A model generated the notes under the pieces. That model worked only from the letters and a program-made list of their open reading frames with translations. It was not told where the DNA came from and made no database searches. 36,558 nucleotides of DNA, taken from NCBI GenBank assembly GCA_014360895.1, contig JACIWQ010000021.1, forward strand, positions 1-36,558, read 5' to 3'. This DNA comes from Thermoflexales bacterium. Lineage in GTDB: Bacteria; Chloroflexota; Anaerolineae; B4-G1; DUEL01. Numbering within the stretch: position 1 is the first letter of the stretch; each line of letters begins with the position of its first letter. Below are positions 7,802-28,660 of the stretch, piece after piece. The translations under genes were made by a program, and so were the position numbers.

Positions 7802-7854
7802 CCCCGGCCACTGACACCTGGCGTCCTTCGCTCCCTTTCGTGTTCTTCGCTCCG

Positions 7855-8742
7855 ATGGACGGCATCCTGAACCTCAACAAACCGCGCGGCCTGACCTCCC
7901 ACGACGTGGTGGCGCGCGTGCGCGCTGTCGCCCGGCAGCGGGAAGTCGGCCACGCCGGCACCCTGGACCCGATGGCGACCGGAGTCCTCCTCCTCTGCTT
8001 GGGCCGGGCTACCCGTCTGGCCGAATACCTGATGGATTCCCCCAAACTCTATCGCGCCCGGGTCCGCCTGGGCGTCGCCACCGACACCGACGACGCCGAG
8101 GGGACGGTCATCGCGGAGCATCCGGTCGCGGTGGACCGGATGGCGGTGGAGGCCGCGCTGGAGCAGTTCCGGGGCCCCATCCTGCAGGTCCCCCCGATGT
8201 ACTCGGCCCTGAAGCGGGAGGGCAGGCCCCTGTATCGCCTGGCCCGCCAGGGCCAGACGGTGGAGCGGGAACCCCGGCCGGTGGAGATTTACCGCCTGGA
8301 CCTGACCGCCTGGGAACCGCCGGAACTGACGCTGGAGGTCCTTTGCTCCCCCGGCACCTACATCCGGGCCCTGGCCCGCGACCTGGGGGACGCGCTGGGG
8401 TGCGGCGCCCACCTGACAGCACTGGTGCGTCTTGCCAGCGGCGATTTCCATCTGGAGGACGCGGCCGAACTGGATGCGCTCACGCCGGAGCGGTTGCCGG
8501 ACCTCTTGCTCCCACCGGACGCGGCCCTGCGCCGCTATCCGGCGCTGTACCTGGATGAGGGTCAGGCTCGGGCGGTCCGCCACGGCCGGGACATCCCGGC
8601 CATCTCGTTGGGGGCCGACCACGAAGCGCATCGGGGCGGTGCTCTGCTGGCCCGCGCCTATGGCCCCGACGGCCGTCTGCTGGCGGTTCTGGAGTACCAA
8701 CCCGACCGGGCGGTATGGCATCCGCGCAAGGTTCTGCTCTGA
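7855..8742 (+). CDS. truB: tRNA pseudouridine(55) synthase TruB
   Basis: Isomerises uridine 55 to pseudouridine in the T-loop of tRNA. The 295-residue product starts MDGILNLNKPRGLTSHDVV. It carries the catalytic motif HAGTLDPMATGVLL with Asp38, and later YIRALARDLG and a C-terminal PUA-like region. ATG 7855 is preferred because the protein then begins at the family's usual N-terminus; a GTG at 7840 would add five residues. Neither has a clear ribosome site. There is a 53-base gap after nrnA. Confidence 0.95.
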   Translation: MDGILNLNKPRGLTSHDVVARVRAVARQREVGHAGTLDPMATGVLLLCLGRATRLAEYLMDSPKLYRARVRLGVATDTDDAEGTVIAEHPVAVDRMAVEAALEQFRGPILQVPPMYSALKREGRPLYRLARQGQTVEREPRPVEIYRLDLTAWEPPELTLEVLCSPGTYIRALARDLGDALGCGAHLTALVRLASGDFHLEDAAELDALTPERLPDLLLPPDAALRRYPALYLDEGQARAVRHGRDIPAISLGADHEAHRGGALLARAYGPDGRLLAVLEYQPDRAVWHPRKVLL

Positions 8743-8745
8743 AAG

Positions 8746-9237
8746 ATGCAACCCACTACCCCGTTTCGTCCCATTATAGCAGTCATCGGAGGTGTGGCCC
8801 CGACGCCGGAGGAGGAGGCGGCGGCGGAGGCGGTGGGCCGCGCGCTGGCCGAAGGGGGTGCCATCCTCATCTGCGGCGGGCGCGGCGGCGTCATGGAGGC
8901 CGCATGCCGGGGGGCCAAATCCGCTGGCGGCCTGACCATCGGCATCCTCCCCGGCCCCGACCGCCGCGAGGCCAACCCGTATGTGGACATCCCCATCGTC
9001 ACCGGCCTGGGGGAGGCGCGCAACGTCATCATCGTCCGGACGGCCCACGCGGTGGTTGCCGTTGGGGGGAGTTACGGCACGTTGAGCGAGATGGCGTTCG
9101 CTCTCCTGTTCGGTGTGCCGGTGGTGGCGCTGGGGAGTTGGGAGGTCCGGCGCGAGGGGCATCCGCCCGCGCCCGTCATTTATGCGGACACTCCACAGGA
9201 AGCCGCCGCCCGCGCGCTGGCCCTGGCCCGAAAATAA
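8746..9237 (+). CDS. LOG/SLOG-type Rossmann-fold nucleotide-binding protein, TIGR00725-like
   Basis: A 163-residue protein of the lysine-decarboxylase-like/LOG superfamily. It begins with the strand IIAVIGGVAPT, followed by LICGGRGGVMEAACRGAKSAGG (about residues 42-63), GEARNVIIV and the superfamily motif GGSYGTLSEMAFAL. The short, single-domain form matches the TIGR00725 group, whose substrate is unknown. Relatives include cytokinin-activating LOG phosphoribohydrolases, but this protein is short and I do not assign that reaction. It starts 3 bases after truB with only a weak ribosome site, implying cotranscription. Confidence 0.85.
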   Translation: MQPTTPFRPIIAVIGGVAPTPEEEAAAEAVGRALAEGGAILICGGRGGVMEAACRGAKSAGGLTIGILPGPDRREANPYVDIPIVTGLGEARNVIIVRTAHAVVAVGGSYGTLSEMAFALLFGVPVVALGSWEVRREGHPPAPVIYADTPQEAAARALALARK

Positions 9238-9242
9238 CACCA

Positions 9243-9298
9243 ACCTGCGACCTGCGACCTGCGCCTTGCGACCTGCGACCTGCGCCTTGCGACCTGTA
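9243..9298 (+). repeat. Heptanucleotide array abutting the ribF start codon
   Basis: Eight successive 7-mers fill this stretch: ACCTGCG is the main unit and every third unit (9264, 9285) is CCTTGCG, creating a 21-bp higher-order period. The last unit, ACCTGTA (9292-9298), runs into the A of the ribF ATG at 9298. With the LOG-family stop at 9237, the array makes up 55 of the 60 intergenic bases. There is no Shine-Dalgarno sequence here. Confidence 0.95.
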
Positions 9299-10245
9299 TG
9301 GAACTTACTCACGACCTGGAGTCCCTGAATCTCTCCACCCCCTCCCACGTCACCATCGGGGCGTTTGATGGGGTGCACCGGGGCCATCAGCACCTCATCG
9401 GCGCCATGGCCCGGGCCGCCCATGCGGCCGGACGGGTGGCCGTCGCACTGACCTTTGATCCCCACCCCGGGGCGCTCCTGGGCCGCAGTCCGGTGGCCGC
9501 GCTGACCACGCCGGAGGAACGGGCCGCGCTGATCGCCGACCTGGGCGTGGACGTGTTGGTGGTCCTGCGCTTCACCCCGACCATGGCGGGCACTCCGGCG
9601 ACCCGTTTCATTGACCTGCTTCGCCGTCACCTGCATATGGTGGAACTGTGGGTGGGGCCGGATTTTGCCCTCGGCCATCGCCGGGAGGGAAATGTTCCCT
9701 TCCTCCGACAGTTGGGGGAACAGGAGGGGTTCGCCGTTCGGGTGGTGGAACCACTCCAGTGGCAGGGGGCAGTGGTCAGCAGCACCCGCATCCGGGCCGC
9801 GCTCACCGCAGGGAATATAGAGGAGGCCAACGGTTGTCTGGGCCGCCCGTATCGCCTGACCGGGCGGGTGGTGCGTGGGCGGGGATTGGGCCGACGGTTG
9901 GGCATCCCCACGGCCAACCTGGCCCCTCCGCCGGAGCGCCTTATCCCGGCCAACGGCGTCTACGCCGCATACGCCCATACTCAGGAAGCAGGCTCTTGGC
10001 CGGCCGTGGTCAACGTGGGGGTCCGCCCCACCATTGCCCCCGACCACCTCACCGTGGAGGCCCACCTGCTGGATTTTGACGGCGACCTCTACGACCAGAC
10101 GCTGGCGCTGGATTTCATCGCCCGTCTACGGGACGAGCAGACCTTTCCCGGCCTCAATGCGCTGGTGGAACAGATCGGGCGAGATATTGCGCGGGCGCGC
10201 GAGATTTTCGGCCTTTCCGGCAGGCACTCCGCGCCCTCGCAATGA
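9298..10245 (+). CDS. ribF: Bifunctional riboflavin kinase/FAD synthetase
   Basis: Makes FMN from riboflavin and FAD from FMN in the cytosol. The 315-residue product has the N-terminal nucleotidyltransferase domain with GAFDGVHRGHQHL (about residues 21-33), VALTFDPHP and the ISSTRIR-like segment VSSTRIRAAL. The C-terminal flavokinase domain begins LTGRVVRGRGLGRRLGIPTANL and continues with NGVYAAYA and VNVGVRPT. It is the last gene of the nusA operon as visible. No ribosome-binding site precedes the ATG because the heptamer array occupies that position. It converges on a methyltransferase gene 11 bases away. Confidence 0.96.
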   Translation: MELTHDLESLNLSTPSHVTIGAFDGVHRGHQHLIGAMARAAHAAGRVAVALTFDPHPGALLGRSPVAALTTPEERAALIADLGVDVLVVLRFTPTMAGTPATRFIDLLRRHLHMVELWVGPDFALGHRREGNVPFLRQLGEQEGFAVRVVEPLQWQGAVVSSTRIRAALTAGNIEEANGCLGRPYRLTGRVVRGRGLGRRLGIPTANLAPPPERLIPANGVYAAYAHTQEAGSWPAVVNVGVRPTIAPDHLTVEAHLLDFDGDLYDQTLALDFIARLRDEQTFPGLNALVEQIGRDIARAREIFGLSGRHSAPSQ

Positions 10246-20380: not shown

Positions 20381-20988
20381 TCGGGTTTACGTCGGCCCCG
20401 ACCGTAGCGCCGGATGAGGGCAAAGGCCATCATCACCGTCCCCAGGCCGACCCCTCCCCACAGTGCCCCGACGGCCAGGCCTGTTTTCGGCAATCGCTCC
20501 CCGGTTGCCCGGGCCGCTCGCGGGGTGGGAGAGGGCATAGCGGTGGGCCCGGGTGGCTGCGGCGGTGGGACTGGCGTATCGGTCGGCTGGGGCGGCGGTG
20601 GAGCCGGCGGCTCCGTCGGTTGGGGCGGCGCCGGTGTGTCCGTCGGGGTCGGTGGCGGCGTCGGGGATGGCGGCACCGGCGTCAGGGACGGCGGCACCGT
20701 GGGCGGAGTGGTGGGCGACGGCGACACCGTGGGCGGAGTGGTGGGCGACGGCGGCACCGTGGGCGGAGTAGTGGGCGACGGCGGCACCGTGGGCGGAGTA
20801 GTGGGCGACGGCGGCTCAGTCGGCGGGGGTGGGGTCAGAGTTATCGGTGGTGTCGGAGTCGGTGGTGGGGTCGGGGTCGGCGGTGGCTGTGCTGCTGCTG
20901 TCCTTGATCCGATCCCCACCGCCAGCAGCACAACCACCAGCAGTATCCCGAGAGAGAGCCAGTTGCGAAGCACTTTCGGCGCGTTCAT
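20371..20988 (-). CDS. Pro/Thr-rich surface protein with LPKTG sorting signal
   Basis: A 205-residue protein with an N-terminal signal/anchor (about residues 10-33), a long Pro/Thr/Ser-rich stalk and a sortase-type C-terminus. That C-terminus has LPKTG (166-170), a hydrophobic segment of ~22 residues and a basic tail RRYGRGRRKP. The stalk contains a decapeptide repeated about four times (PPSPTTPPTV), encoded by 30-bp repeats. Sortases cleave LPXTG between Thr and Gly and attach the protein to the cell wall; no sortase gene is in the window. AAGGA precedes the ATG. It begins 17 bases after the DUF11 giant gene and is likely cotranscribed. Confidence 0.8.
   Translation of the reverse strand: MNAPKVLRNWLSLGILLVVVLLAVGIGSRTAAAQPPPTPTPPPTPTPPITLTPPPPTEPPSPTTPPTVPPSPTTPPTVPPSPTTPPTVSPSPTTPPTVPPSLTPVPPSPTPPPTPTDTPAPPQPTEPPAPPPPQPTDTPVPPPQPPGPTAMPSPTPRAARATGERLPKTGLAVGALWGGVGLGTVMMAFALIRRYGRGRRKPDRT
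20696..20815 (-). repeat. Four tandem 30-bp repeats in the stalk coding region
   Basis: Units begin at 20696, 20726, 20756 and 20786, each 30 bp and nearly identical, encoding the decapeptide PPSPTTPPTV and variants. The period is a multiple of three, so copy-number changes would alter stalk length without breaking the frame. Confidence 0.95.
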
Positions 20989-25671: not shown

Positions 25672-26460
25672 TCACATAATGATACCCGAAATTCCCCAAA
25701 TGTCCAGCCGGATTCGCTGCATCCGGTCGGGGTGGTTGGTGATGATGGCATCCACTCCCCACTCTGCCAGACGGACCATAGCTTCCGGGTCGTCCACGGT
25801 CCAGGCCACCACCCGCTGGCCCCGGGCGTGGGCCCGCCGGACGACCTGGGGGGTAACCATACCCCACCATGGATGGACGGCCTGGGGCCGCAGGCGGACC
25901 AGTGCCGCCGCCAGCCGCGCGGCGCGGGAAAGGGTCGCCGTTTCGTAGAGAAACCCGATGGGTACCTCCGGCATCTCCCGCCGGAACCGCTGCAGGGCGA
26001 AGGGGTTGAACGAAGAGACCAGTACCCGGTCGGCCAGGCCGTGCCGCCGGACCAGCGCTGCCACCGCCGCCTCCAGCCCCGGGTAGTCGTTGCCGGGCAT
26101 GGATTTCAGTTCCACGTTGATCAGGAGACGGCCCCCCACCTCGGCGAAGACCTCCTCCAGGGTGGGGATACGCTCCCCGGCGAAGGCGGGATCAAAGCGG
26201 GAACCGGCGTCCAGTTCCTTCAGCGCGGCCAGCGGCAGGTCCCGTACCCGCCCGGTCCCGTCCGTCGTCGCGTCCACGGTGAAGTCGTGGATGACCACCG
26301 GGACGCCGTCGGCCGAGAGGTGGACGTCCAGTTCCACGCCGTCGGCGCCCAGTTCGGCGGCGCGGCGGAAGGCCGCCAGGGTGTTCGGCGGCGCGACCGC
26401 ACTGGCCCCCCGGTGGGCGATGTTGAAGGGACGGTCGGATGTGAGCCAGAGAGATGTCAT
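25672..26460 (-). CDS. Glycerophosphodiester phosphodiesterase
   Basis: Hydrolyses glycerophosphodiesters to glycerol-3-phosphate and an alcohol. The 262-residue TIM-barrel protein has FNIAHRGAS (His16, Arg17), PPNTLAAF, GVELDVH (Glu43, Asp45) and VVIHDF (His58), all standard GDPD active-site elements, followed by INVELKS. No signal peptide is present, so it is a cytosolic UgpQ-like form. The gene lacks a Shine-Dalgarno; a heptamer array runs to within 3 bases of the ATG. It is probably cotranscribed with the carboxyltransferase upstream, whose stop lies 117 bases away. Confidence 0.93.
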   Translation of the reverse strand: MTSLWLTSDRPFNIAHRGASAVAPPNTLAAFRRAAELGADGVELDVHLSADGVPVVIHDFTVDATTDGTGRVRDLPLAALKELDAGSRFDPAFAGERIPTLEEVFAEVGGRLLINVELKSMPGNDYPGLEAAVAALVRRHGLADRVLVSSFNPFALQRFRREMPEVPIGFLYETATLSRAARLAAALVRLRPQAVHPWWGMVTPQVVRRAHARGQRVVAWTVDDPEAMVRLAEWGVDAIITNHPDRMQRIRLDIWGISGIIM

Positions 26461-26463
26461 GAT

Positions 26464-26575
26464 AGCCGGTAGCCGGAAGTCGGAAGCCGGAAGCCGGAAG
26501 TCGGAAGCCGGAAGCCGGAAGTCGGAAGCCGGAAGCCGGAAGTCGGAAGCCGGAAGCCGGAAGCCGGAAGTCGGC
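26464..26575 (-). repeat. Heptanucleotide array filling the gap before the glycerophosphodiesterase gene
   Basis: Exactly sixteen 7-mers, read on the plus strand as AGCCGGA with AGTCGGA as nearly every third unit, giving a 21-bp higher-order period. The array lies between the stop of the carboxyltransferase (26578) and the ATG of the next gene (26460) and takes up 112 of the 117 intergenic bases. Confidence 0.97.
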
Positions 26576-26577
26576 CG

Positions 26578-28131
26578 CTACAGCGGGATGTTGCCGTGTT
26601 TTTTCGGCGGGTTGGCATCCCGCTTGTTCCGCAGCATCTTCAGCGCCTCAATCAGCCGGGGGCGGGTCTCCTGCGGCTCTATGATGTCGTCTATGTAACC
26701 GCGCGCGGCGGCGATGTAGGGGTTGGCGAACTGCTCCCGGTACTCCCGCACCAGCCGCTCCCGCTCCGCCTCCGGGTCGGCGGCCGCCGCAATCTCCTTG
26801 CGGAAGATGATGTTCACCGCCCCGTCCGGCCCCATCACCGCAATCTCCGCCGTCGGCCAGGCGTAGGAGATGTCGCCCCGGATGTGCTTGGAACTCATCA
26901 CGTCATACGCGCCGCCGTAGGCCTTGCGCAGGATGACCGTCACTTTGGGCACCGTCGCCTCGCAATAGGCCCAGAGCAGTTTGGAGCCGTGGATGATGAT
27001 GCCACCGTGTTCCTGGTTCACGCCGGGCAGGAACCCCGGCACGTCCACAAAGGTGACGATGGGGATGTTGAAGCAGTCGCAGAACTGGACGAAGCGGGCC
27101 GCCTTGCGGGAAGCGTCTATATCCAGGACGCCCGCCAGGACCAGCGGCTGGTTGGCGACAATCCCCACGGAGAACCCGCCCAGTCGGGCAAAGCCGACGA
27201 CGATGTTCTGGGCCCAGTGCTCGTGGACCTCCAGGAACTCCCCGTTATCCACCACCCGCCGGATGACTTCCTTCACGTCGTAGGGACGGGTGGGGCTTTC
27301 GGGGATGATGGTCTTCAGTTCCTCGTCCTTTCGGTCCTCGGGGTCGTCGGTAGGGACGAAGGGCGGGTCCTCCATGTTGTTCTGGGGGATGTAGGAGAGG
27401 AGACGGCGGATGAGGTCAAAGCAGTGCTCCTCGTTCTCGGCGGCGAAGTGGGCGACGCCGCTCTTGGTAGCGTGGGTCATCGCGCCGCCCAGTTCTTCAA
27501 AGGTCACCTCCTCCCGCGTGACCGCTTTGATGACGTCCGGGCCGGTGATGAACATGTGGCTGGTGTCCTTGACCATGAGGATGAAGTCGGTCATGGCGGG
27601 GGAGTAGACGGCGCCGCCCGCGCAGGGACCCATGATGGCCGAAATCTGGGGGATCACGCCGGAGGCCAGGACGTTGCGCAGGAAGATGTAGGCGTACCCG
27701 GCCAGGGAGACGACGCCTTCCTGGATGCGCGCGCCGCCGGAGTCGTTGAGGCCGATGACGGGCGCGCCGTTCTTCATCGCCAGGTCCATAATCTTGCAGA
27801 CCTTCTCGGCGTGGACCTCGGAGAGGGAGCCGCCGAAGACGGTGAAGTCCTGGGAGAAGACGTAGACCAGGCGGCCGTTGATCGTCCCCCAGCCGGTGAC
27901 GACGGAATCCCCCAGGTACTTCTGCTTCTCCACGCCGAAGCCGACAGCCCGGTGGGTGACGAACATATCCAGTTCCCGGAAGGAGCCGGGGTCCAGGAGT
28001 TTCTCCACTCGCTCCCGGGCGGTCAGTTTTCCCTGGGCGTGCTGGCGGTCAATGCGCTCCTGGCCGCCGGCCAGCCGCGCCTGCTGGCGCATCTGATGGA
28101 GTTGGGCAATCAGGTCGTCTATGGTGGACAT
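26578..28131 (-). CDS. Acyl-CoA carboxylase carboxyltransferase (beta) subunit, propionyl-/methylmalonyl-CoA type
   Basis: Transfers carboxyl between biotin and an acyl-CoA. The 517-residue product has both crotonase-type halves of the family: [13 protein letters not shown]-like start ([18 protein letters not shown]), [32 protein letters not shown] in the N-terminal half, and [19 protein letters not shown] with [13 protein letters not shown] in the C-terminal half. The length fits PccB or MmdA (about 515 residues). Biotin carboxylase, biotin carrier or decarboxylase membrane subunits are not nearby, so carboxylase and decarboxylase roles cannot be separated. ATG 28131 has GAGGTG upstream; a longer in-frame reading to 28638 runs through repeats and is not real. 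Confidence 0.93.
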
Positions 28132-28140
28132 GGGCACCTC

Positions 28141-28168
28141 GTGTTGCGTATTGCGTATTGCGTACTCC
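28141..28168 (-). repeat. Short heptanucleotide array before the carboxyltransferase gene
   Basis: Four 7-mers (GTGTTGC, GTATTGC, GTATTGC, GTACTCC on the plus strand) end 9 bases upstream of the ATG at 28131, separated from it by a GAGGTG ribosome site. It has the same period as the arrays at 9243 and 26464 but an unrelated unit. Confidence 0.85.
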
Positions 28169-28185: not shown

Positions 28186-28660
28186 GATTGGAAATCGGCC
28201 TGGCCTGGGCGCAGGCGGGTTCGCTGCCGCTCGCCGGGACATCCGCTTTGTGTCCGCCTGCGCGGACGCGGAACCCCCCGTCGGCGAAGGCCGACGGCGC
28301 CGATTGGAAATCGGCCTCGCCTGGGCCTTCGGCCTTGCGTCCGCCTGCGCGGACGCGAAACCCCTGTCGGCGCAGGCCGACGGCTGGCATCCGGTCCAGA
28401 GAGGCTGACCTCGGTCAGCGCATTGGAAATCGGCCTCGCCTGGGCCTTCGGCCGGGTGCCCGCCTGCGCGGGCGCGAAACCCCGTCGGCGAAGGCCGACG
28501 GCTGGCATCCGGCCTAGAGAGGCCGCCTTCAGTCGGCGCTGATTGGAAATCAGCCTGCCTGGGCGCTTCGCGCCGGACGTCAGCCTTCGCTGACGCAAAA
28601 CCTGTCGGCCTGCGCCGACAGGGAGGCCAAAGGCCCAAAGAGGCCGCCTTCAGTCGGCGC
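28186..28660. repeat. Four tandem ~120-bp multi-hairpin repeats
   Basis: Copies begin at 28186, 28302, 28421 and 28541 with periods of 116-120 bp. Each opens with (G)ATTGGAAATC and holds three or four short hairpins: GGCC-tt-GGCC-type, GTCCGC-ctgc-GCGGAC and GTCGGC-gaa-GCCGAC. Most end with a segment like GGCTGGCATCCGG...AGAGGC. The copies differ by compensating changes that keep the stems, for example GCCCGC-ctgc-GCGGGC in copy 3. Nothing here codes convincingly. The last copy overlaps the 3' end of the CHAT gene. Confidence 0.9.

Follow-up and report, generated by a model that had tools for sequence, protein, structure and literature searches.

The heptamer array found immediately upstream of ribF in the window analysed here (a 36,558-nt stretch of DNA from a Thermoflexales bacterium) is best read as one of some 270 slippage-made arrays of seven-base units, which persist mainly in the stretch from one gene's last needed codon to the Shine–Dalgarno (SD) sequence of the next, a few words having spread in one sub-clade of the genus. 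We put the probability of this reading at about three in four. Because the array is one of so many fast-changing gap arrays that start at stop codons and normally spare the next ribosome site, it probably represents a known type of genomic filler and not a special ribF switch. A preliminary description of the sequence proposed three possible roles: a slippage-tunable translation leader, a phased protein-binding array or a neutral occupant of intergenic gaps. Neutral gap-filling is the best fit of the three, and the computational analysis found no support for either the protein-binding array or the tunable leader.

The features surrounding the ribF array, all on the forward strand, are as follows:

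7840–8742, plus strand: truB, which lies directly 5′ of ribF in outgroup species (passes the family-model cut-off)
8746–9237, plus strand: TIGR00725-family (LOG-like Rossmann) gene, with a TAA stop before the array (passes the family-model cut-off)
9243–9296, plus strand: heptamer array, 7.7 × ACCTGCG, every third unit being CCTTGCG, between the TIGR00725-family gene and ribF (TRF and sequence)
9298–10245, plus strand: ribF, bifunctional riboflavin kinase/FAD synthetase, no SD (TIGR00083 and NF004160 above cut-off; start conserved)

TRF calls this array with period 7 and also with period 21, the latter at 100% matches over 9246–9296. The units run ACCTGCG three times, CCTTGCG, ACCTGCG twice, CCTTGCG and a final ACCTG, after which a single T precedes the RibF ATG at 9298. 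The alteration of every third unit noted in the preliminary description is therefore real, as is the 21-bp period, which is perfect, but the initial block consists of three regular units. The array also lies where that description located it, beginning at 9243 and ending at 9296, one base before the start codon. Since the preceding gene stops at the TAA at 9235–9237, the array occupies most of a 60-nt stop-to-start gap. No SD-like match was found upstream of the ribF ATG, and the position of the RibF start is conserved among same-genus species. The TIGR00725-family gene is present between truB and ribF in the window's own species group but is missing from that position in the outgroups G404, G192 and G410.

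Two further arrays reported in the preliminary description, on the opposite strand, are also present:

25672–26460, minus strand: glycerophosphodiester phosphodiesterase (GDPD) gene, downstream of the AGCCGGA array (E 1e-54, strong but below the curated family cut-off)
26464–26574, minus strand: heptamer array, 15.9 × AGCCGGA (sense TCCGGCT), filling the gap between the carboxyltransferase and GDPD genes (TRF)
26578–28131, minus strand: acyl-CoA carboxyltransferase/mmdA-like gene, between the two minus-strand arrays (TIGR01117, E 1e-258, below the curated cut-off)
28140–28164, minus strand: short array, sense ACGCAAT × 3.6 (CGTATTG by TRF), before the carboxyltransferase gene (TRF)

The array before GDPD, like that before ribF, is flush with a start that has no SD, and TRF also assigns it a period of 21 (96%). 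At the carboxyltransferase gene, however, an SD-like GAGGTG follows the array and precedes the ATG.

To place these arrays in context, we surveyed about half (1.81 Mb, 51%) of the 3.57-Mb genome to which the window belongs, using a third-order Markov version of the same 1.81 Mb as a control. Genes were taken from a simple home-made codon-usage caller, and gene starts are therefore approximate. The sample contains 149 period-7 arrays, compared with none in the control; these merge to 142 arrays or 135 regions, from which we extrapolate to about 270 array regions in the whole genome. The over-representation of unit length 7 among tandem repeats thus holds here, period 7 being the most frequent (149 arrays, as against 67 each for periods 8 and 9 and 11 for period 6). 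Intergenic DNA accounts for 83% of array bases but only 12% of all sampled DNA. Median copy number is 7.4, and about 45 distinct words are found among the 142 arrays.

The arrays are mostly non-coding and lie between aligned ORFs, near the upstream stop. Of 117 gap arrays, 106 are co-directional, 8 divergent and 3 convergent, with arrays in 90 of 666 versus 5 of 130 gaps of 30–300 bp (Fisher P 0.001); a model of pure tolerance would not predict that convergent gaps should be poorer in arrays, but such gaps are few in the sample and may hold terminators. Sixty-three of the 106 co-directional arrays have their first base no more than about 10 nt from the stop of the preceding gene. At the other end, 36 arrays finish within −5 to 12 nt of a start, whereas random placement in the same gaps gives a mean of 53 (95% 46–61), and an SD match of at least 4 nt is kept in 38 of the 39 genes whose array ends 9–30 nt before the start. 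That start-near ends fall below the null and that the SD is kept so consistently defines a placement rule that is stop-proximal and SD-sparing, to which ribF and GDPD are exceptions. The preference for gene starts anticipated in the preliminary description, for which a genome scan for period-7 arrays was suggested, is not borne out: it is the upstream stop that the arrays abut.

Further clues come from the stop codons themselves. A heptamer with one stop codon displays that stop in all three frames every 21 bp, and an array entering the end of a gene therefore supplies its own stop. In arrays of the GTGAA family in forward orientation, the stop triplet recurs exactly 7 nt on in 18 of 26 cases, compared with none of 13 reverse arrays and 6 of 754 array-free control gaps (0.8%), and the upstream stop is TGA in 22 of the 26, compared with 46% genome-wide. 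Several predicted proteins end in array-encoded residues, one example terminating in KDEVRSME where its counterpart in the relative G401 terminates in KDEIGGTG.

We also compared about fifteen orthologous array gaps in related genomes, mostly incomplete metagenome assemblies. Before ribF, the window's own species has about 8 units, G403 has 6 (RibF 94% identical), G400 about 16 (RibF 92% identical), G401 a decayed handful and G405 only 1–2. No array is seen in G404 and other outgroups, where truB directly precedes ribF; in G404 a mere 3 nt separate the truB stop from the ribF start (TAACCTATG) and there is no SD. Because this array-free outgroup ribF also lacks an SD, the start was probably SD-independent before the array arose, which makes replacement of an SD by the array improbable. 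The earlier proposal that arrays replace any SD fails at the carboxyltransferase gene, with its GAGGTG, and as a general rule it is rejected by the 38 of 39 genes mentioned above.

Similar differences are seen elsewhere. The GDPD gap measures 117 nt with its array in the window's own species but 16 nt without one in G401, and at another locus 84 nt of GTATGGA units correspond to 4 nt in G401. G403 carries 13 × CAATCTG (G403_L188) where the window's own species has a single CAATCGG (L073), and at one orthologous gap GCGATAT units in one species are matched by GCGACCT units in another. Upstream of sucD (named by eye), there are 10 units in the window's own species, about 3 in G400, 1–2 in G403 and none in G405, with an SD-like GGAG stretch before the gene in each of the four. 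Coding DNA flanking the compared gaps is mostly 85–95% identical. Orthologous gaps in close species thus hold from 0 to 16 units, other words or nothing, whilst the flanking genes are intact, and the variation in copy number between related species raised in the preliminary description is confirmed at ribF, GDPD, sucD and other orthologous gaps.

A single word family, GTGAAAC, makes up 53 of the 142 arrays in both orientations, whereas a random draw of intergenic heptamers would give about 11. Arrays of GTGAARC abound in G000, G400, G402 and G403. They are scarce or missing in G401, G404 and G405, and of 400 sampled Chloroflexota 6 have any, leaving 394 without. CCTGCG, the word found before ribF, is most common in G400. 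Within arrays, multi-unit blocks are duplicated more than shuffled order allows. Between loci, runs of four mixed units are held in common 88 times, compared with 49 in shuffles (P 0.0025), a modest excess that alternating patterns may cause and that offers a slight hint of inter-locus copying.

Growth in place explains the seeds, the copy number variation and the overlap with stop codons. On its own, however, it leaves the dominance of one word at so many gaps unaccounted for, and slippage acting purely locally gives no reason to expect one word family, in both orientations, at 53 of 142 arrays. The family's abundance in only one sub-clade and the shared four-unit runs might instead reflect word-specific copying, in which a homing or template-switch parasite inserts arrays into new gaps. 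In its fullest form, a lineage-specific process would copy heptamer words between unrelated gaps in both orientations, such that a few words sweep the genome, displace earlier ones and regularly furnish housekeeping genes with their stop codons and C-terminal tails. We regard both the insertion of arrays by copying and this broader scenario as rather unlikely, although a good deal less so than the alternatives considered below. The single-unit seed at an orthologous site (L073, compared with G403_L188) and the in-phase stop codons point to growth in place, loci have unit order in common only to a modest degree, for which alternating patterns may account, and no mobile gene or boundary motif was seen.

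A different possibility is that the arrays are sequence-specific leaders acting on expression of the downstream gene, as MacGregor proposed for TAACTGA repeats (PMC4679880). The arrays are indeed found inside co-directional gene clusters with some orientation bias (forward to reverse, 26:13 for GTGAA and 7:1 for CCTGCGA), and folding of the ribF leader RNA is somewhat stronger than that of shuffled sequences (z about −2 to −3), although moderate folding by itself says little. Such a role nevertheless appears improbable: both orientations and about 45 distinct words are in use, the SD is preserved separately from the array, and word and copy number differ, even to the point of full absence, at orthologous gaps beside housekeeping genes in close species. 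That the main word favours the forward orientation follows from the overlap of its stop codon with that of the upstream gene. Less probable still is a phased array of 21 bp, or two turns, binding a DNA protein. Both long arrays in the window show a clean three-unit order, but the claim that 21 bp is a general higher-order unit does not survive comparison across 59 arrays, in which similarity at lag 14 exceeds that at lag 21 (0.878 versus 0.856) and that at lag 28 is no lower than at lag 21. Loss of mismatch repair is often followed by repeat expansion, and such a loss in this lineage would fit that general link. As a cause of the arrays it was rejected on gene content and is very improbable, with MutS1 and MutL above family cut-offs in G000 and likewise in the array-poor G401, G404 and G405.

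Taken together, these results favour slippage-made arrays in the following sense. Arrays would arise, grow and shrink by whole 7-bp units, strand slippage or unequal exchange in the course of replication or repair being the likeliest cause, and the placement statistics show that they persist mainly between the last needed codon and the SD of the next co-directional gene. Units bearing a stop on the sense strand can enter the end of the upstream gene, where, as the sequences show, they supply the stop codon and the last few residues of the predicted protein. Certain words, chiefly GTGAARC, have proliferated across numerous gaps within one sub-clade of the genus, whether via copying or selection. 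The ribF array would merely be flush with an ATG that, to judge from the outgroup, was probably already SD-independent. If expression is affected at all, through stop-to-start distances that differ among species, the effect would be incidental.

The STRR heptanucleotide repeats of heterocystous cyanobacteria are a familiar example of short tandem repeats scattered through intergenic DNA. The present arrays are likewise dispersed, intergenic and built of heptanucleotide units, but the words and the phylum are different. STRR repeats are mentioned in PMC2670836. GGGNATC heptamers in Xanthomonas and Nostoc are found genome-wide in intergenic DNA, chiefly between aligned ORFs, and are rare in genes and between divergent ORFs; they lie nearest the 5′ neighbour, some overlapping its stop, and related species differ in how many units they carry (Rehm et al. 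2015, PMC4692102). Our arrays share the intergenic location between aligned ORFs, the position beside the upstream stop and the varying unit number. Unlike GGGNATC, they use many words, most without G-tracts for quadruplexes (the dominant GTGAARC, CCTGCGA and ATACGGA lack GGG, where GGGNATC has a G-tract per unit), have no preference for four units and show presence/absence turnover between close species.

In the TAACTGA direct repeats of marine Beggiatoaceae, cyanobacteria and Bacteroidetes, one word dominates, arrays most often end 1 nt before a start and ribosome-binding sites (RBSs) are rare (MacGregor 2015, PMC4679880). The ribF case is similar to these repeats, which lie between genes, some over the upstream stop and many flush with an RBS-less start, and both ribF and GDPD have an array ending at a start with no RBS. 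Genome-wide, by contrast, arrays here are depleted at starts, begin at the stop, normally leave the SD in place and comprise many words. From the same phylum come the (GATAGRA)n satellites of Chloroflexus aurantiacus, 22 satellites of a single word scattered through the genome (Subirana and Messeguer 2019, PMC6749651); the phylum and the scattered, heptamer-derived arrays are shared, the single word is not. For Anaerolineae themselves, we found no literature on heptamer arrays beyond this Chloroflexus report. More generally, heptanucleotides are the commonest longer SSR unit in most genomes, an excess in bacterial long SSRs that has been attributed to polymerase slippage (Mrazek et al. 2007, as cited in PMC4692102 and PMC4679880); the same excess is seen here, although that study, as cited, is a general survey. 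Because of their likeness to the Mrazek, GGGNATC, TAACTGA and GATAGRA cases, we place the present arrays among the known intergenic heptamer repeats (GGGNATC, TAACTGA, STRR and GATAGRA), to which they add a multi-word, fast-turnover case. The striking repeat at the ribF start codon is one face of a genome-wide, fast-turnover class that extends from stop codons to just short of ribosome sites, and the pairs of orthologous gaps open two long-standing questions, why the unit is seven bases long and how particular words spread, to testing within one genus of closely related genomes.

A number of other observations were made. Period-8 arrays (65, with 77% of bases intergenic) form a second intergenic class in the genome sample, from whose gaps arrays of period 6 or less are nearly missing. 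With arrays removed, lag-7 similarity in intergenic DNA is 0.272, compared with about 0.26–0.27 at adjoining lags, and this slight excess therefore does not support the idea that all intergenic DNA consists of decayed heptamers. In G329, a genome of a different Chloroflexota family, hits numbered 28 for the test pattern and 156 for its backwards control (CRAAGTG), and heptamers of some other word may therefore abound in another lineage. One ribosomal protein operon contains a GTTTCAC array (L047:2278–2314) between rpsM-like and rpsK-like genes (named by eye), with an SD-like ACGGAGT preserved before the second. At L087:16064–16120 and L114:11127–11183, (ACGGAAT)n is followed directly by its reverse complement, and these fold-back arrays could form terminator-like hairpins. 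The window itself also contains five 30-bp repeats at 20687–20833 (GACGGCGGCACCGTGGGCGGAGTGGTGGGC), possibly a glycine-rich coding stretch, and, upstream of the carboxyltransferase gene at 28295–28660, three tandem copies of 119 bp that are unlike the heptamers, are 81% alike and each carry GATTGGAAATC and GTCGGCGAAGGCCGAC-like motifs.
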